A DNA stretch of 64,000 nucleotides from Bryobacterales bacterium (GTDB lineage: Bacteria; Acidobacteriota; Terriglobia; Bryobacterales; UBA6623), in the NCBI GenBank assembly GCA_026713545.1, contig JAPOOG010000150.1:62001-126000 (forward strand). Reading direction: 5' to 3'. The notes beneath the pieces are model-generated. The model was not told where the DNA came from. It was given only the letters and a program-made list of their open reading frames with translations, and did no database searches. The translations under genes and the position numbers were made by a program. Shown one piece after another: positions 20,097-28,182 of the stretch. Each line of letters opens with the position of its first letter. Within the stretch, counting starts at the first letter, position 1.

Positions 20097-20828
20097 TCAC
20101 CTTGCCGCCACGGCCGAAGGGCGGCTGACGCCATCCCAGCCGGCGGCCTCGATCACTTCTTCCACATCGCCCTCTGCAGTGATCTTGCCGTGCTCGAAGT
20201 AGACGGCCCGCGACGCCAACCGGCGCGCCAGAATAAGGTCATGGGTCACCAGGATCTTGGCCTGACTCAGGCTCTGAAGAATCTCGATCAACGACGACTT
20301 CGCCGGAGGATCCAGGAAGGTTGACGGCTCGTCGAGCAAAATGATTTCGGGGCTCATCGCCAGTACACCGGCGAGCGCGACGCGACGTTTTTCCCCGGCG
20401 CTGAGATGGTAGGGCGGCCGGCTCGCCACGTGCTCCATGGCCACTTGCCCCAAGCTCTCCTTCACGCGCTTCCGTACCTCGTCGGGCGAGAGACCTAGAT
20501 TCAAGGGCCCGAAAGCAACATCCTCCTCGACGCTGGGCATGAAGAGCTGGTCGTCGGAATCCTGGAACAGCATGCCGATCTTTTGCCGCACCTGGGCCAG
20601 GTTTTTCTTCCTCACGGGCATGCCGCAGACGACGATCTCACCCTCGTTCTTCCCCTCGGCCAAGCCGAGCAGATGCAGCAGGAACGTGGTCTTGCCCGAT
20701 CCGTTCGCCCCGAGCACCGCGACCGTTTCACCGAGGTCGAGTTGGAAATCGACGCCGTTGAGGGCCGCCGTTCCGTCGGGGTAGGAATAGCGCAGGTTCG
20801 TGACCTGAATGATGGCTGAGGTCGACAT
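20097..20828 (-). CDS. cbiO: ECF transporter ATPase for cobalt/nickel
   Basis: The 243-residue ATPase begins MSTSAIIQVTNLRYSYPDGT at ATG 20828; a much longer frame reaches back through cbiQ but is not homologous. Walker A GANGSGKTT (40-48), the signature LSAGEKRRVALAG, Walker B IILLDEPSTFLDP and the switch His in VTHDL are all present. CbiO powers uptake by the CbiMNQO complex. It is the last gene of the minus-strand importer cluster, 8 bp after cbiQ. A cobalt supply would serve the B12-dependent ribonucleotide reductase encoded at 57202. Confidence 0.93.
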   Translation of the reverse strand: MSTSAIIQVTNLRYSYPDGTAALNGVDFQLDLGETVAVLGANGSGKTTFLLHLLGLAEGKNEGEIVVCGMPVRKKNLAQVRQKIGMLFQDSDDQLFMPSVEEDVAFGPLNLGLSPDEVRKRVKESLGQVAMEHVASRPPYHLSAGEKRRVALAGVLAMSPEIILLDEPSTFLDPPAKSSLIEILQSLSQAKILVTHDLILARRLASRAVYFEHGKITAEGDVEEVIEAAGWDGVSRPSAVAAR

Positions 20829-20836
20829 GGCAGGTG

Positions 20837-21562
20837 CTACCCCATCCAGAACCGCGCTGTGATTTGAATCGCCACTGCCAACATGACCGTGGCCGCCAGC
20901 CCAAACCAGTCGCCGCGTTGCGTGCCGGTCTCGGCAAGCACGGGGAAGCGACCCTGAAATCCCCGCGCCAACATCGCGTGATGGATGCGTTCGGCGCGGC
21001 CGTAGCTGCGCGCGAAAAGGACGGCGATCGCCCCCGCCGAGGCCTTCCATAGTGGAGTACGTCCTCTGCGCAGCGGAGCGCGGCACTTCCTGGCGCGCGC
21101 CATGGACTGCGCCTGGCTCGAAAGCAGGAAGAGATAGCGATAAACGAAGTGCAGCACCATCAACAGGAACGGCGGGACGAGCATGCGCTCCAGTCCCCTC
21201 AGCAGGGCCGGGAACGGCGTCGTCGCCAACAGCGCGACCGCCGTGTAGGCCGAGAGCAGGCTACGAAGCAGGATGAGGATCGCAAGTGACGGATCACCTC
21301 CCCAAAGGTTGAGGATGGCGATGCCGGCAACGAAGGGCAAGACGATGAGCGAGCGGAGCAAACTCCCACCCAACGGGATGCCCGCGGCCGCCAAATAGGT
21401 CGTCAACAGCGCGAAGTATCCCGCGAAAGCGGTCGCCGACTCCCTGTCCGTTGTCGCCAGGCAGAGCAGGACGGTCAAGGCTCCCAGCAACTTGACGCGG
21501 GCGTCCAGGCCATGGATGCGCGATCCACCGCCGCTCCAGTCTTCGAAGGCCAGCGAACGCAT
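20837..21562 (-). CDS. cbiQ: ECF transporter T component, cobalt/nickel
   Basis: The 241-residue membrane protein has the CbiQ pattern: IHGLDARVKLLGALTVLL at the N-terminus, several TMs, and the cytoplasmic coupling motifs seen as ARSYGRAERIHHAMLARGF (the RAxxxxxAMxARG coupling helix that contacts CbiO). It connects the S unit CbiM to the ATPase. The gene starts 1 bp after the PDGLE-domain gene and ends 8 bp before cbiO. Confidence 0.9.
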   Translation of the reverse strand: MRSLAFEDWSGGGSRIHGLDARVKLLGALTVLLCLATTDRESATAFAGYFALLTTYLAAAGIPLGGSLLRSLIVLPFVAGIAILNLWGGDPSLAILILLRSLLSAYTAVALLATTPFPALLRGLERMLVPPFLLMVLHFVYRYLFLLSSQAQSMARARKCRAPLRRGRTPLWKASAGAIAVLFARSYGRAERIHHAMLARGFQGRFPVLAETGTQRGDWFGLAATVMLAVAIQITARFWMG

Positions 21563-21563
21563 G

Positions 21564-21851
21564 TCAGCCGTCCCGTCCGCGGCGGACGAGACGACCGAAC
21601 AACACTCCGAAGCCGTACATCAGAGCGACTCCGAACAGACCCGCCACAACCTGCGCCGGCCAGGAGGAATCAATCAGCCGGAACTCGTAGTCGGCAAACG
21701 GGCTCCACGGCTCGCCTTCCGCCGCCCGATCCGAAAAGCCGAGCAGCTCGGCGACCGACTCCAGCCCGTCAGGCGAAGACGAAGCCACGAGGACCCCCAA
21801 CACAACCAAAGCCAATGTCAGTGCGCCCAAAAACAGAATGATTCGCTTCAT
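21564..21851 (-). CDS. PDGLE-domain protein, CbiN-like component
   Basis: This 95-residue protein has two membrane segments (5-23 and about 69-85) and the hallmark SSPDGLESV just after the first. PDGLE domains occur alone or fused to CbiM in cobalt/nickel ECF systems, where they take the place of CbiN. Its ATG overlaps the cbiM stop by 4 bp, so translation is coupled. Confidence 0.85.
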   Translation of the reverse strand: MKRIILFLGALTLALVVLGVLVASSSPDGLESVAELLGFSDRAAEGEPWSPFADYEFRLIDSSWPAQVVAGLFGVALMYGFGVLFGRLVRRGRDG

Positions 21852-22480
21852 GCAGCCTCGCCGGGCAAGACGTAGGCGCTATTCAGCCGCTGGATGGCGG
21901 AGAGCGTCACGACGGTAATCAAACCTTCGGCAACTCCCGTAACGGCATGAATGCCCAGCATCGAAACAAACAACGGACCGCTCGGCGCCATGGCGGAGAT
22001 GCTGAGCTCGACAGCGGCCAGCAGAGCCGCCGCCATCAGTGACAACCAGCCGCCCAGAAAGGCCGCCAGGCTCCGCAATCGCGGCCCCCGGCCGTTGAGC
22101 AGCTTCATCGGCAGATAGCCCACCCAGACGCCGACTACCGCCATGTTGACGACATTGGCTCCAAGAGCCAGGATTCCGCCGTCCTGAAAGACGAGAGCCT
22201 GCACGCAAAGAATGGCGGTCATCACCACCGTGGCCGCGCTGGGCCCCAGCGTGAAAGCCAATAGAGCCCCTCCGATCAGGTGTCCTGATGCCCCCGCCAT
22301 TACGGGGAAATTGATCATCTGGGCCGCGAAGACGAACGACCCTAAAACTCCCAGCAGAGGGATCCGGGAATCTTCGAAGACCCGCTGGGTGCGGCGCACG
22401 AAGTAGCCGACGCTGGGGATCGCGGCCAAGTCCAGACTCAGCCAAACAGGAACAGAGAGAAATCCGTCGGGTATATGCAT
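21848..22480 (-). CDS. cbiM: ECF transporter S component, cobalt/nickel
   Basis: The 210-residue protein begins MHIPDGFLS; the N-terminal amine and His 2 are metal ligands in CbiM/NikM. Further conserved pieces are FPVMAGASGHLIGGALLAFTLGP and IHAVTGVAEGLIT. Choice of Co over Ni cannot be settled from sequence. I looked for a cobalamin riboswitch in the 140 bp upstream and saw none. The SPFH operon ends at 22621 just upstream on the same strand, so read-through is possible. Confidence 0.92.
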   Translation of the reverse strand: MHIPDGFLSVPVWLSLDLAAIPSVGYFVRRTQRVFEDSRIPLLGVLGSFVFAAQMINFPVMAGASGHLIGGALLAFTLGPSAATVVMTAILCVQALVFQDGGILALGANVVNMAVVGVWVGYLPMKLLNGRGPRLRSLAAFLGGWLSLMAAALLAAVELSISAMAPSGPLFVSMLGIHAVTGVAEGLITVVTLSAIQRLNSAYVLPGEAA

Positions 22481-22620: not shown

Positions 22621-23124
22621 TCAGTAGACGGGCGTGCCGTAGGGGACGATCGTTTCCACCCTCTCGATCCCGTCGAGTTTCGTGATCGTCCAGCGGCCGG
22701 AGAGCCTCTCGAGTCGGAACCGCTGCGCCTCGTTGCGGTCCGCATAAACGTACTCGACGCGGATGTCCACAGCGCTATCGGACACCTCCAAGGGCTCATA
22801 CATTGCAAAACCCTTGATGAGCTCGTTGTTTTTCATGAGGTATCGTGCGAAGCCCGAGGCCGACATTTCGGCGACGCTCTGCTGGAGTGTTTTCTTCATC
22901 TGCCCGCCGAAGGACTCGAGATAAGCGTCCACGTCTCCGTCACGGGCGGCGTCCATCATGCGATTGATCGTGTCGGTTGGCTGGTCGGACTCCTCCGATC
23001 CCGCAAACAGCGCTTCGGAGGCGCTCGAGGGAAGGCGCCAGCGAGTTTCCCGGCCGATAACCAGGATGAGTCCGGCCGTGACTACCGAGAGCGTGACGAC
23101 GTGAGCTTTGCGCAGCTTCGTCAT
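22621..23124 (-). CDS. Small anchored protein of unknown function in SPFH operon
   Basis: The 167-residue product has an N-terminal membrane anchor (about 8-24) followed by a soluble domain rich in short beta-type segments: TINRMMDAARDGDVDAYLESFGG, then VDIRVEYVYADRNEAQRFRLERLSGRWTITKLDG. This resembles NTF2-like or DUF4878-type domains, but I cannot name the family. Its start overlaps the end of the second hflK by 4 bp, so it is co-translated with the SPFH proteins and probably belongs to the same complex outside the cytoplasm. Confidence 0.7.
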   Translation of the reverse strand: MTKLRKAHVVTLSVVTAGLILVIGRETRWRLPSSASEALFAGSEESDQPTDTINRMMDAARDGDVDAYLESFGGQMKKTLQQSVAEMSASGFARYLMKNNELIKGFAMYEPLEVSDSAVDIRVEYVYADRNEAQRFRLERLSGRWTITKLDGIERVETIVPYGTPVY

Positions 23125-24173
23125 GGCGGCGGAGGGAAGGCCGTCGTGGGCGGAGGGAGTGTCGCCTCGCTCGGTGACGAAGCCGGCTCTCGCCGGATGA
23201 TCGTCATATCGAGATTCCCGGCGCTGTCCACGATCGTTTTCTTCAGACGGGGCAGAACCTCCTCCATGGTCTCGAGATAAAGGCGGCTGCGAGTGAGCGC
23301 CGGGGTCCTGTTGTATTCCACCGCGAGTTGGGCGAATCGAGCAGCGTCGCCTTGCGCCTCGTCAACGCTGCGCTGCCGGTAGGCCTGAGACTCTTCGAGC
23401 AGCTTGGTCGCTTCACCTCGAGCGCGGGGAATCAGATCGTTGGCATAGCCCTGCGCTTCGTTGATGATGCGGACCGAATCCGCGCGGGCGCTGGCCACAT
23501 CCCGGAAAGACGCGGCCGTCTCGGGAGGCGGCGCGATGTACTCGATCGAGACGGTCGAGAGAACGACGCCCAGGCCGTACTGGTCGACGAGCTGCTGTGC
23601 TTGCTGCCGGACGGTTTCCTGGATCGCCACCTTCTCGGTCGTGAGCACATCGTCCACATTGCGCAAGGAGATCTGGCGCGAAAGCTCTGACTCGGTCGCA
23701 GCACTGATTGCCTGCCCTACGTCCTCGGCGCGGAACAGGTATTCATCCGGTGTTGCGACGCTGTACTGCACCACGGTACGGATGTTGATGAGGTTCTGAT
23801 CGCCGGTCAGAAACTGTGAGGCCAGCGGCTCAACTTGACCGAGGGGTTGATCGGCCGGCGCCCCGCCGATGAAGGCGCGCTGCCGTTGGAGAACCTTGAG
23901 CTTGTGGACCTCGGCGATCGGGTAAGGCCAGGTCAGATGTATTCCGGGCAGGATCCGGCGCTCGACGATCTCTCCGAAGCGAGTCACGACGGCCTGCTGA
24001 TCGGGGCCGATGATGTAGACGCCCGTCAGCAACCACAGCGCCGCCAGTACGGCCGCGATCAAGCGTCGTCGGTTCCACGTCGGCGGGCGCTCCTTCTCCA
24101 CAGGCCGGCCGCTGGGCGAGGAGGGGCGCTCAGTGGGTTCGACGGCGACTGTGGGATCGAGAACGGTGCTCAT
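23121..24173 (-). CDS. HflK-like SPFH/Band 7 protein (second copy in operon)
   Basis: The 350-residue protein has a Pro-rich cytosolic tail (1-34), one membrane segment (about 38-56) and an SPFH domain: GPDQQAVVTRFGEI, LPGIHLTWPYPIAEVHKLKV, FLTGDQNLINIRTVVQYSV, then the coiled-coil Ala/Glu-rich region SARADSVRIINEAQGYANDLIPRARGEA and a Pro-rich end. HflK with HflC forms a large cage around FtsH in well-studied bacteria. Here no ftsH is adjacent. It is the third gene of the operon led by the ATPase-HflK fusion, 17 bp after the HflC-like gene. Confidence 0.88.
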   Translation of the reverse strand: MSTVLDPTVAVEPTERPSSPSGRPVEKERPPTWNRRRLIAAVLAALWLLTGVYIIGPDQQAVVTRFGEIVERRILPGIHLTWPYPIAEVHKLKVLQRQRAFIGGAPADQPLGQVEPLASQFLTGDQNLINIRTVVQYSVATPDEYLFRAEDVGQAISAATESELSRQISLRNVDDVLTTEKVAIQETVRQQAQQLVDQYGLGVVLSTVSIEYIAPPPETAASFRDVASARADSVRIINEAQGYANDLIPRARGEATKLLEESQAYRQRSVDEAQGDAARFAQLAVEYNRTPALTRSRLYLETMEEVLPRLKKTIVDSAGNLDMTIIRREPASSPSEATLPPPTTAFPPPP

Positions 24174-24190
24174 GGATCTTGCTCTCGTGA

Positions 24191-25150
24191 CTATTGCCCG
24201 CGCGTGAGCAGCCGCAACAGCTCCGAATCGGAACTGAGAACGACGGTTGTCTTGTTGTCGAGCGCCTTCTTGTAGGTCTCCAAGGTGCGCGTCAGCTTGT
24301 AGAACTGCGGGTTGCGGGAATAGGCCTCGCCATAAATGCGCGCCGCGTCGGCATCGCCCTTGCCCTTGATCTCCTCGGCTTCCTTGTAGGCGGCCGACAG
24401 GATCTCCTCGCGTTGGCGGTCAGCGTCAGCTCGGATCCGCAGCGCCTCCTCCTCGCCCTCGGCGCGATACTGCCTCGCGATTCGCTCACGCTCGGCACGC
24501 ATACGGCCAAATACGCTCTGTTTATTCTGCTCGGGCAGGTTCAGCCTCTTGATGCGAACGTCCAGAACATCGATCCCGTATCCTGTCAGCGCCTGCGAGC
24601 CGGTCTGCTCGGAAAGTGCATCGAGCATCGACTCCGTCCGCACCCGCGCCGGGTTTACAGAGACGATGGCGTCGAGATCATGGCGTCCCATCGTCGCGGC
24701 CAGACCCGCCCAGACGATGTCATGCAGGCGCATCTCGGCCGCTTCAGGGTTTCCGACGGTCTCGACGAAAGTTTGCGGCTCGGCGATGCGCCACAGAACG
24801 TAGCTCTCCAACACGAGATTCTTCTTGTCGCGCGTCAGGAACTCGGACGGCGTCGGGTTGTAAACACGCAGGCGCCGATCGAAGTAGGTGGCCGTTTCGT
24901 AGGGCCACTTGAAGTGCGGCCCCGCTTCGGTAACGGTGCGCACGGGCCTGCCGAACGCTGTGACCAGCACGAACTCGGTTTCCCTCACGGTGAAGAACGA
25001 CGCGTACAGAAGCAGCACGACCACAACGGCGGCGGCGTACGGTCCCCAGCGGCGATAGTCGGCCAGCACTTCCCCCCGGCTTCGCCGAGTCACAGGTTCG
25101 TGGTCATGATGGTGATGATGGTGGTGGTGATGGTCGATGTGATCGTGCAT
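24191..25150 (-). CDS. HflC-like SPFH protein with histidine-rich N-terminal tail
   Basis: The 319-residue protein opens with MHDHID followed by nine consecutive histidines and DHE, giving 13 His in the first 17 residues. A membrane segment follows (about 36-55), then an SPFH domain (ETEFVLVTAFGRPVRTVTEAGPHFKWPY; FLTRDKKNLVLESYVLWRI) and the HflC-type MRAERERIARQYRAEGEEEALRIRADADRQ region. By HflC topology the His tail would be cytosolic and could bind Ni, Co, Zn or Cu. Its ATG overlaps the stop of the ATPase-HflK gene by one base. Confidence 0.88.
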   Translation of the reverse strand: MHDHIDHHHHHHHHHDHEPVTRRSRGEVLADYRRWGPYAAAVVVVLLLYASFFTVRETEFVLVTAFGRPVRTVTEAGPHFKWPYETATYFDRRLRVYNPTPSEFLTRDKKNLVLESYVLWRIAEPQTFVETVGNPEAAEMRLHDIVWAGLAATMGRHDLDAIVSVNPARVRTESMLDALSEQTGSQALTGYGIDVLDVRIKRLNLPEQNKQSVFGRMRAERERIARQYRAEGEEEALRIRADADRQREEILSAAYKEAEEIKGKGDADAARIYGEAYSRNPQFYKLTRTLETYKKALDNKTTVVLSSDSELLRLLTRGQ

Positions 25151-28100
25151 CAGGGTTGCTCCAAGACATCGTCAAACGGGATGGTCGGCTGTGGCGGCAT
25201 CGACCCGGGCGGCAACATGAGAACGTCGTCCTCGATCGCATAAAGCGTGCGGCGGCCCGAGCCGTTACGGTCCAGCACGAGCTTGCGCCGTCCGGGCAGG
25301 ATCTCATCCATGACTTCGAGGTAGAGGCGTGTTGCATTGGGGCCGGGAGCGCTGCGGTACCCGGATTCGAACTGCCGGAAGCGCGAGGCATCGCCGACGG
25401 CGCGGTCCGAGCGGACTTTCGAATAGGCCTCGGCGACGCTGATCCGTGCTCCGGCTTGCCCTCGCGCCAGCGCGACCTGCTCGTTGCGGTATCCCTCGGC
25501 GGCGTTGATGCGGCGGCTTTTTTCTTCAAGAGCGCCCGCCACTTCGCGAAAAGCGTCGACGACCTCGACGGACGGATGCACGTCCTGAAAGCGCACCTGC
25601 AAGACCCGCGCCCCGGTCTGGTACTTGGCGAGGCGGTCGTTGAGCTGCCGCTCCGCCTGCTGCTCGAGGCCCCGGCGGCTCGTCGTCAGCAGATCATCGA
25701 GAGCGGTCGAGTTGACGATCCGCTGGATCACCGACTCCGCGGCGACCTGCAACGTCTCTTCCGCGTCGAGTTGCTGAAAGAGATAGGCGTCCGGCCGCTC
25801 GAGGTTGTAGTGGACGATGGCGGTCATCTCGATCATGTTCTGGTCGCCGGTCAGCATCAACGATTCATCCGGCTTGCGCTCGAAGCGTCCCATGCGATGC
25901 TGTGCGTTCCATTCGTAGGCCGGGGGTTCCGACTCGTCCTCGCCGGCTTCGGCCGCCACCGTGCGGAATCCGACCTCGATCGTGCGGACGCGCAGATCTT
26001 CCATCCGCGTCAGCCGCTCGAAGGGATAGGGCAGCTTGTAATGCCAGCCCGGCGGCTCATGCGGCGTCACCTTGGCTCCAAGACGCTCGATGACGCCGAC
26101 CTCACCCGGTTGGATGGTATGGAAGCCGCTCAGAACCCACAATGCCGCGGCAGCCAAGAGCGCCGGTTTGATCATCTCACGGCGGCGATCCCACAGCCAT
26201 GCAAAGCCGGCGGCCGGGTCGAGATGACTGAGCCAATGCTTGAGATCATGCCACCAGGAGCGGACCGGCGTCCGCTCGAAGAGACGCAGCAGCCAGATCC
26301 GTTGCCCTCGCGGCCGCTCGACCCTGAGCAGCCGCACGGAGTTGACCATCACGAAGAAGGACGCGATCTGATGGACGATGGCCGCGCCGATCGGCCCGAG
26401 CAAGCCGCGGCTGGCGGCCAGCACGGCAAGCACGTTGACGATGCCCGCGAAGATGATGATGTTCTGCCAGACGATGGCTACCGCCCTGCGGCTCACGACG
26501 AGCAGCCGGGGCAGCTTTTCGAGCGAACGGTTGAGGTCGACGACATCGGCAGCCTCCGCCGCGATATCGGCCCCCGATCCTGCCACGGCCACGCCGACGT
26601 CGGCCGCTGCCAGAGCGGGTGCGTCGTTAACGCCGTCGCCGATCATCGCAACCTTGCGTCCCTCGGCCTGCAACTGGCGAATCCGCTCGAGCTTCTGCTC
26701 GGGCAGAAGCTCCGACTCGACATGCGGGATGCCGACCTCGCGAGCCACGGCTTGGGCGGCGCTCTTGCGATCGCCGGTCAGGAGAATTACGTTCTGGATG
26801 CCCAGGTCCTCAAGTTCGTGAACGGCGTCATGGGCGCCCCGGCGGGCCGTATCTCGCAGCAGGATCGCGCCCACGAGATGCTCATCGGCCGCGACAAGAA
26901 CGGCGGTTGCTCCTGCGCGGTCGGCTTCTTCGAGGTACGAATCGACGCCGCGGATGCCGTTCTCGGCCAGAAACGCCGCATTGCCCGCCCGGACCCGTCT
27001 TCCGCCCACGTGGCACTCCGCGCCACGGCCGGGAACTATCTCGGCGTCGCTGGACGTCTCGAACTCGACGCCCTTCTCTTGGGCGGTTTGGACAATCACT
27101 TTCGCCAACGGGTGATCGGAGCCGCTTTCCGCCGAGGCGCCGTAGGCCAAGACCTGGTCTTCGGCGAAACCTTCCGCCGGAAGCGTCTTGATGATCTGAA
27201 AGGCGCCGGACGTCAACGTGCCGGTCTTGTCGAAGACGACCGTGTCGACCTTCGAGCCCAGTTGAAGAATCGATCCGCCCCGGACGAGAATGCCCCGGCG
27301 GGCCAAACCGCCGATCCCGGCCACCATCGCCGCCGGTGTCGCCAGAATCAACGCACAGGGACAGCCGACGATGAGAACGGCGACCGTCCGCAGCCAATCG
27401 GACGTGAAGTAGTAGGTCCCCCCGGCCGCCAGAAGCAACGCCGGCAGAAAGTATTGCGCGTAGCGGTCGGCTTGGCGCACTACCGGCGCCCGCCGCGTTT
27501 TCGCAGCCTCCACCAGCTCGACGACTCTCGCCAGTGTGCTTTCTTCAGCCCGATGGCTTACGCGAATATGCAGCAGGCCGTGGCCGTTCAGGGTGCCGGC
27601 GTAGATATCATCTCCCTCGGCCTTGTCACGCGGGACGGACTCGCCGGTGATTGGGCTTTCGTCGACGCTCGATTGGCCGCTCAGGACAACGCCGTCGGCC
27701 GAGATGCGTTCTCCGGCGCGCACGACAATGGTGTCGCCGGGGACGAGGTCCTGAACCGGGACATCCACTTCTTCACCGTCGCGCAGCACTCGAGCCCGGT
27801 GAGGCAGTTGCTCGACGAACTTGTGGATCGCGGCCTCGGTGCGTCCCGCGGCATAGGCCTCCAACCCCTCGCCGACAAGCATGATGAACATCGCCTCGGC
27901 GGCGGCCAGATACTCGCCCACGGTAAGGGCGGCCCCGGCGGCGATGCAGATCGCCAAGTCTGCGGAGATGCGCTTCTCGAGCAGCTCGCCGATCGCACGG
28001 GAAAATGTTCCATACCCCGCAAGCAGAGTCAGAAAGATTGCCGTATCGATCCCCAGGATCGACGAAAACAACCCTGTGACATTGAGCAGAAGCAGGACGC

Positions 28101-28182
28101 CGACGGCCGCCGTGAAGCCGATGTACTTGACCCGCTCCCGCGCGTGCCGGTTGATGGAATGGTCTTCGCTAACGACGTGCAA
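25150..28182 (-). CDS. Fusion of P1B-type metal-transporting ATPase and HflK-like SPFH domain
   Basis: The 1010-residue protein has two full modules. Residues 1-620 are a P1B ATPase: no N-terminal CxxC metal domain; TGES at 179-182 (dephosphorylation), CPC in the ion path at 274-276, DKTGT at 318-322 (phospho-Asp 318), SDHPLA at 355-360 (the P1B His-Pro), and GDGVND at 515-520. The TM7/TM8 ion-site positions read IVNVLAVLAA and VHQIASFFVMVNSVRLLR, lacking the Lys/Asp of Zn pumps and the YN/MxxSS of Cu pumps. Residues about 665-1010 are HflK-like: a membrane segment at 671-687, then HTIQPGEVGVIERLGAK, PPGWHYKLPYPFERL, LTGDQNMIEMTAIVHYNLE and a C-terminal coiled-coil part. The reading frame is continuous with no internal stop. 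It heads the operon. Confidence 0.92.
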   Translation of the reverse strand: MHVVSEDHSINRHARERVKYIGFTAAVGVLLLLNVTGLFSSILGIDTAIFLTLLAGYGTFSRAIGELLEKRISADLAICIAAGAALTVGEYLAAAEAMFIMLVGEGLEAYAAGRTEAAIHKFVEQLPHRARVLRDGEEVDVPVQDLVPGDTIVVRAGERISADGVVLSGQSSVDESPITGESVPRDKAEGDDIYAGTLNGHGLLHIRVSHRAEESTLARVVELVEAAKTRRAPVVRQADRYAQYFLPALLLAAGGTYYFTSDWLRTVAVLIVGCPCALILATPAAMVAGIGGLARRGILVRGGSILQLGSKVDTVVFDKTGTLTSGAFQIIKTLPAEGFAEDQVLAYGASAESGSDHPLAKVIVQTAQEKGVEFETSSDAEIVPGRGAECHVGGRRVRAGNAAFLAENGIRGVDSYLEEADRAGATAVLVAADEHLVGAILLRDTARRGAHDAVHELEDLGIQNVILLTGDRKSAAQAVAREVGIPHVESELLPEQKLERIRQLQAEGRKVAMIGDGVNDAPALAAADVGVAVAGSGADIAAEAADVVDLNRSLEKLPRLLVVSRRAVAIVWQNIIIFAGIVNVLAVLAASRGLLGPIGAAIVHQIASFFVMVNSVRLLRVERPRGQRIWLLRLFERTPVRSWWHDLKHWLSHLDPAAGFAWLWDRRREMIKPALLAAAALWVLSGFHTIQPGEVGVIERLGAKVTPHEPPGWHYKLPYPFERLTRMEDLRVRTIEVGFRTVAAEAGEDESEPPAYEWNAQHRMGRFERKPDESLMLTGDQNMIEMTAIVHYNLERPDAYLFQQLDAEETLQVAAESVIQRIVNSTALDDLLTTSRRGLEQQAERQLNDRLAKYQTGARVLQVRFQDVHPSVEVVDAFREVAGALEEKSRRINAAEGYRNEQVALARGQAGARISVAEAYSKVRSDRAVGDASRFRQFESGYRSAPGPNATRLYLEVMDEILPGRRKLVLDRNGSGRRTLYAIEDDVLMLPPGSMPPQPTIPFDDVLEQP

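Follow-up and report, generated by a model that had tools for sequence, protein, structure and literature searches.

Which cargo SPFH proteins enclose, besides FtsH, is a standing question, and a locus in a Bryobacterales (Acidobacteriota) metagenome-assembled genome (MAG; 5.6 Mb, 170 contigs, 99% complete) raises it in a specific form. Within the window, that is, the whole 64,000-nucleotide stretch of DNA analyzed, four adjoining minus-strand genes (28182-22621), each with an open frame, encode an ATPase-HflK fusion, an HflC, a second, free HflK, and a small membrane-anchored protein. The original prediction, made from the sequence alone, had described these as genes that overlap or lie within 17 bp of each other, and coordinates and profiles agree with it: the fusion gene and hflC overlap by 1 bp, hflC and the free hflK are separated by 17 bp, and the free hflK and the small gene overlap by 4 bp. 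What it missed is that the ATPase is a heavy-metal pump of the P1B type, and that similar triads exist with other metal transporters. The covalent fusion names a likely cargo, a metal pump, and we conclude that the four genes probably encode a dedicated metal-transport assembly, in which the P1B pump is tethered into an SPFH dome of the HflK/C type.

The fusion gene (25150..28182, on the minus strand, as are all features given below) starts with TTG and encodes 1010 residues, within which a P1B and an HflK profile each exceed their curated cut-offs. The pump part (residues 75-620; 26323..27960) scores 556.8 bits against TIGR01525, the profile for heavy-metal P-type ATPases, with a cut-off of 346.25. 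It carries the TGE, CPC(x)6P, DKTGT, HP, and GDGxND motifs as well as N583 in membrane helix M5 and HQxxS in M6, with the CPC motif of the metal site falling in M4 (residues 274-276; 27355..27363). When 66 loci and the window sequence are aligned (n=67), CPC(x)6P, DKTG, TGE, N583, and the HQ pair of M6 are kept in all 67 fusions, the motifs of P1B membership (CPC-type M4, DKTGT, TGE, and GDGxND) in 66-67, and S608 of M6 in 65. The Pfam scan detected no HMA domain in the window fusion, a domain that is common but not universal in P1B ATPases, and CxxC occurs within the first 90 residues of a single fusion among the 67. In two P1B-like ATPases (L247 and L252), M4 has GACG where CPC would stand, and M6 has HVASE.

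The remainder of the chain is an HflK-type SPFH domain with a coiled coil (residues 687-977; 25252..26124), scoring 169.8 bits against TIGR01933 (cut-off 159.4) and 68.8 bits against Band_7. An AlphaFold2 model built with 31 aligned sequences (mean predicted local distance difference test score, pLDDT, 77.2) places eight pump helices first, two of them upstream of residues 75-620, followed by an extra ninth helix (residues 667-684; 26131..26184), SPFH1/2, and a long coiled coil. The solved structures that match this model best in Foldseek are P1B pumps, headed by CopA (7r0g). Since the pump is modelled with eight helices, the linker should be cytoplasmic and the SPFH part periplasmic, with the ninth helix carrying the chain across the membrane. 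The SPFH part also has a loop, YEWNxQHR (residues 756-763; 25894..25917), which the alignment shows to be specific to the fused branch: Y756, E757, W758, and H762 are invariant in 31 aligned fusions, and the loop is missing from the free HflK, the HflK of the SO_0444 module described below, and the canonical HflK compared. One might speculate that it contacts metal in the periplasm.

The next two genes encode SPFH chains of the HflC and HflK types. HflC (24191..25150; 319 residues with one N-terminal membrane helix) scores 210.7 bits against TIGR01932, for which the cut-off is 134.4, and the free HflK (23121..24173; 350 residues) scores 225.9 bits against the same profile and cut-off as the fused one. 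The last product (22621..23124; 167 residues) has no Pfam or NCBIfam family at 0.001; however, its model, made with 28 aligned homologues (mean pLDDT 86.1), consists of one N-terminal membrane helix and a predicted NTF2-like fold, and Foldseek returns NTF2-like proteins from E 3.2e-5 onwards. A weaker match, at rank 30, is YbjP bound to AcrABZ-TolC, an efflux-pump accessory of comparable fold. The suggestion that the small protein faces the same compartment as the SPFH domains fits this model.

The module is real and conserved. Our scan of named genomes yielded 128 relatives, 80 of which were kept; they are mostly from Acidobacteriota, with two of Armatimonadota type (L151 and L158), and some are genomes that also belong to the surveyed genome sets. 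The closest is a Bryobacterales MAG (L079), whose fused SPFH part is 96% identical. All 80 loci have an ATPase match, and in 76 it runs uninterrupted into the SPFH part. This open-frame test uses the best ATPase match, and breaks outside that match can pass (L141 looks split), while two of the four failures, L108 and L116, form a single frame on another reading. By tblastn, and counting contigs long enough to show the next gene, HflC lies 3' of the fusion in 75 of 75 loci; the corresponding figures are 68 of 68 for the free HflK and 58 of 65 for the small gene. Homologues scattered singly in other genomes would have spoken against a dedicated set; instead, the lineages examined keep them together. 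Of 100 genomes of the order covered by a protein search, 26 contain the full fusion and one more has it broken into two pieces; by our own count, these are 16 of the 18 genomes of the same family and 11 of the 80 of a second family. In an even sample of the phylum, where an open frame of more than 1000 residues scoring at least 296 bits was called a fusion, it is carried by 15 of 297 genomes across four families. The neighbors of the module differ, and a conserved fifth gene was rejected: 78 of the 116 nearest flanking open reading frames (ORFs) were scanned, and no Pfam family occurs in more than five. A few records are likely mis-binned contigs, since L113 and L114 are apparently one module stretch under Acidobacteria and Cytophagales titles, and Bryobacterales-like modules also appear under Acidimicrobiia and Nevskia titles (L083 and L118).

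Are these chains simply the housekeeping HflK and HflC of their hosts? In a tree of 67 SPFH rows, the fused HflK, the free HflK, and the module HflC each stand apart from canonical HflK and HflC. The fused HflK group requires two changes in this tree, where the Armatimonadota row is set apart from it, and a single change in another tree; the program warned of long branches in both. Each module has two HflK types for its HflC, where the canonical arrangement has one. Among 61 Bryobacterales genomes, HflK proteins above the family cut-off number 44, found in 22 genomes, all of them in the module with one fused and one free copy each; 38 genomes lack any HflK match at E<=1e-25, and one has a single weak match. 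In the window's own genome, HflK and HflC exceed their cut-offs only in this module, apart from one HflC belonging to an SO_0444-linked module. Yet 12 of the 15 fusion-bearing genomes of the phylum sample have another HflK-like match away from the module, and in one of them (G225) inspection of the neighborhood identified it as an hflK-hflC pair (L216). Because other HflK-like matches occur in those 12 genomes and no HflK in the 38, the module is neither the sole possible HflKC nor an obligatory partner of FtsH.

These results bear on several claims of the original prediction. Its view of two distinct HflK types sharing one HflC in a dedicated three-chain set agrees with the tree, in which both HflK types separate from housekeeping HflK. 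Its caution that these might be the only hflKC genes of the genome applies to the window's own genome, with the SO_0444-linked HflC set aside, but not to most fusion-bearing genomes of the phylum sample. No ftsH lies in the operon, and the only full-length FtsH gene of the genome sits on another contig; this is weak evidence, as E. coli hflKC (in the order hfq-hflX-hflK-hflC-yjeT-purA) does not adjoin ftsH either. Its proposal of a dedicated hetero-oligomer rather than an FtsH regulator is borne out as far as a gene set distinct from the housekeeping one is concerned, and the three chains may form a single hetero-oligomer.

A further feature that may point towards metal is the N-terminus of HflC, which in the window reads MHDHIDHHHHHHHHHDHEP; its His-rich tail, read from the sequence, is MHDHIDHHHHHHHHHDHE (25097..25150). 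Defining a His-rich segment as at least 8 His within 25 residues, we found one in 18 of 66 module HflC, 3 of 73 free HflK, and 3 of 82 fusion frames, compared to 2 of 384 flanking ORFs, some of which may be spurious. The difference between HflC and the flanking ORFs corresponds to a Fisher p of 1.6e-14, uncorrected for kinship and with related loci not being independent. Altogether, 24 of 79 loci have such a segment (one near-identical locus was dropped), and never two per locus. In the first 60 residues of 10 HflC encoded in two-gene hflKC pairs, His never occurs more than twice. As the tails precede the membrane helix, they would lie on the cytoplasmic side, provided that the topology matches that of E. 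coli.

The same plan recurs with other metal transporters. The genome harbors a second module on contig C11 (90978-95622), in which a permease of the SO_0444 family of Cu/Zn efflux transporters (321.1 bits; cut-off 300) forms one chain with an HflK-like domain that scores 126.5 bits, below the 159.4 cut-off. A TolC-like gene lies upstream; after the fusion come HflC, an HflK-like chain whose C-terminal extension is long, and a Peripla_BP_6 protein. The permease has a His-rich loop. This order is kept in relatives. With partial ones counted, SO_0444-HflK matches were obtained from 13 of the 150 genomes searched in the order and from 2 of the 297 in the phylum, and from no plasmid at 1e-30. One genome has a second SO_0444-HflK module (L210; G035:C98), where a stop interrupts the permease frame. 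On the Aquibium oceanicum plasmid NZ_CP018172.1 (L221, 5367-9012), it is a CDF transporter (TIGR01297, 90.0 bits; cut-off 82.35) that is fused to HflK (215.3 bits), followed by HflC and a free HflK (221.4 bits). To the 3' side of this triad are genes for a peptidylprolyl isomerase, a ZntA-type ATPase, and PCu(A)C, with SCO also nearby. Only one of 61 matching plasmid records reaches at least 80% coverage of this fusion, and the 297 Acidobacteriota genomes gave a single match, to the HflK part alone; the CDF case therefore rests on one locus.

Plasmids also hold an unfused version. In five loci, from Paraburkholderia, Klebsiella, Burkholderia, and two Rhizobium (L222, L225, L227, L228, and L229), a long HflK for which 5-7 membrane helices are predicted precedes HflC and a third SPFH gene, and a separate P1B ATPase comes after these, so that an HflK-HflC-HflK triad and a P1B ATPase share one operon both in the window, where they are fused, and in these five, where they are not. 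For L222, L225, L227, and L229, the membrane domain at the N-terminus of the long HflK gave no Pfam match, and His-rich segments are again found on the HflC of L222, L227, L228, and L229. With Aquibium included, 6 of the 13 plasmid HflC loci opened combine a metal transporter with a third SPFH gene; the 13 were hand-picked from 74 records rather than drawn at random. In the other seven (L223, L224, L226, and L230-L233) neither a third SPFH gene nor a P1B ATPase was seen, four of these being unannotated records judged by our similarity labels alone. A close common ancestry of the fusion and plasmid-triad ATPases was rejected by the ATPase tree; since the two are not sister groups, it appears that pump and triad came together on more than one occasion or that pumps were exchanged. 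Whether all of these loci exemplify one general class, namely HflK-HflC-HflK triads whose first HflK bears an exchangeable metal transporter (P1B, SO_0444, or CDF) and which form a periplasmic dome with His-rich metal-collecting tails, seems to us evenly balanced.

For the module in the window, we propose the following mechanism. The P1B ATPase would be tethered covalently to HflK through its cytoplasmic C-terminus and the one extra membrane helix, and the pump-bearing HflK would co-assemble in the periplasm with HflC and the free HflK into a dome. The pump would then sit at the base of the dome with its periplasmic exit opening beneath it, and metal would be released there. The free HflK presumably dilutes the pump-bearing subunit, so that only some of the HflK positions carry a bulky pump. 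The NTF2-like protein could act as an accessory in the same compartment as the dome, and the His-rich cytoplasmic tails, usually on HflC, may in many lineages capture metal for a pump that lacks an N-terminal metal-binding domain of its own.

Several observations weigh against this proposal. The M4/M5/M6 set (CPC, N, and HQxxS) equals none of the aligned reference P1B pumps (CopA for Cu, ZntA for Zn, and the SPC/HEGST type), and no metal is therefore assigned to the fusion. The scanned flanks of the named loci contain no recurrent metal gene or metal regulator. No His-rich segment reaches the chosen threshold in 55 of the 79 loci. Of the 65 loci with room for it, 7 lack the small gene, which was also not recognized in two genomes, L201 and L202. 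The fusion ATPases do not group with those of the plasmid triads, which form a clade of their own, so that the two cannot be a single inherited system. Finally, the P. aeruginosa pump HmtA (PA2435), whose gene clusters with those of the HflC/HflK-family proteins PA2437-PA2439, is reported to be an importer (PMC4542158), which would reverse the direction of export that we envisage.

HmtA in fact suggests a different reading of the module, in which the pump would import Zn or Cu to the cytoplasm when metal is scarce, with the dome acting to concentrate or gate it on the periplasmic side. The genes PA2434-PA2439, which include hmtA and its HflC/HflK neighbors, are up 5.6- to 14.4-fold in a znuA mutant (PMC4542158, Table 2), proteins of the cluster are more abundant under zinc depletion, although some of the changes are not significant (PMC11761036), and the gene order resembles that of the plasmid loci. 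Nevertheless, we consider import quite unlikely, because the fusion ATPases are not sister to those of the plasmid triads (HmtA's own sequence was not compared), and because the His-rich tails, given an E. coli-like topology, lie on the cytoplasmic side, where an exporter loads. Some P1B pumps feed metalloenzyme assembly, and the dome could instead be a periplasmic enclosure in which the pump hands metal to a client, such as the NTF2-like protein, a cuproenzyme, or another acceptor, rather than serving detoxification. A gene for a periplasmic partner is indeed conserved (NTF2-like here, Peripla_BP_6 in the SO_0444 module), and copper chaperone genes of the PCu(A)C type are found close to two plasmid triads (L221, with SCO as well, and L222). 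However, the flank scan linked no client enzyme recurrently to the acidobacterial module, and both SO_0444 and CDF are families annotated for efflux, which leaves such a metallation chamber unlikely.

Two further explanations carry still less weight. The SPFH chains could be ordinary FtsH modulators, with the fusion recruiting FtsH for turnover of the pump: their profiles are those of FtsH modulators, FtsH is encoded in the genome, and E. coli HflK/C encloses it (PMC12005517). This is very improbable considering that 38 of the 61 Bryobacterales genomes have no HflK match at E<=1e-25, so that FtsH has no general need of it there, that the module chains form their own clades, and that the C-terminal tails of the free and fused HflK in this genome comprise 47 and 52 residues, shorter than the 88 of E. 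coli HflK, whose extension is said to contact FtsH (PMC12005517). A gene-fusion or assembly artefact without joint function is hardly credible. Most of the genomes are MAGs and 4 of the 80 named loci fail the open-frame test, but the others are uninterrupted, full-length fusions occur on unrelated contigs from several families and two phyla, and the catalytic motifs are kept; a chance or artefactual origin of the gene order was likewise rejected, the same order being found in 80 named loci. We therefore retain the tethered pump in an HflK/C-type dome as the most plausible account of the module.

Next to the module, 140 bp downstream, lie cbiM-PDGLE/cbiN-cbiQ-cbiO cobalt/nickel ECF transporter genes, identified by profile matches (20097..22480). 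They were rejected as a part of it, as they adjoin the module only in the pair from the window's own genus (L061 and L078) among 18 loci compared.

If a general class of transporter-bearing triads exists, SPFH domes would be metal-transport microcompartments and not only FtsH regulators. The fusion itself suggests that a group of soil and marine bacteria build dedicated enclosures around metal transporters, and that a membrane enclosure can house metal efflux or metallation. The coexistence of a fused and a free HflK offers a genetic handle on stoichiometry, and by the same logic the SPFH genes that neighbor hmtA in Pseudomonas, so far unexplained, are predicted to have a role.

How does the module compare with systems already described? 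We found no description of a P-type ATPase-HflK fusion in the open-access literature, subscription papers being mostly outside our coverage, and no study in the open-access literature that tests the SPFH proteins of the hmtA cluster in metal handling. We take PaFlo5-6-7 of PA14 to be the same genes as these. A 2026 study of P. aeruginosa SPFH proteins describes three of them in one operon, and neither an ATPase nor HmtA is mentioned in its text (PMC13086221). The hmtA cluster resembles the module in combining a P1B-type ATPase with HflC/HflK-family proteins, but the P. aeruginosa ATPase is a separate gene, whereas that of the module is fused to HflK. The plasmid triads have a layout similar to that of the hmtA cluster, and their ATPases belong to a P1B clade distant from the fusions; judged on these ATPases, and with the HmtA sequence itself not in the alignment, the pump of the module is not orthologous to that of an HmtA-type operon. 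The HflK-HflC of E. coli shares with the module both SPFH types above their cut-offs, a single membrane helix, SPFH1/2, and the coiled coil, but the module has two HflKs per HflC, one of them fused to a pump, its chains fall in clades separate from the canonical chains of E. coli and of Acidobacteriota, and it has no link to ftsH. The SO_0444 family, one member of which is described in a report whose text contains no mention of SPFH, HflK, or HflC (PMC10092412), is unrelated to P1B pumps as a membrane protein family, yet it is fused to an HflK-like domain in the sister module. In mycobacteria, the P1B pump CtpC is clustered by PacL1, a membrane scaffold with a metal-binding motif (PMC9374683); PacL carries DUF1490 rather than SPFH and is not fused to the pump, and none of the four module proteins has a Pfam match to DUF1490. 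Another parallel is the stomatin dome of erythrocytes, an SPFH assembly that corrals membrane transporters, enclosing AQP1 and UT-B much as HflK/C corrals FtsH (PMC12407830). That dome is eukaryotic, is built from one kind of chain, and holds cargo that is not covalently attached. SPFH enclosures are familiar, and the new element would be a transporter tethered to one by fusion.

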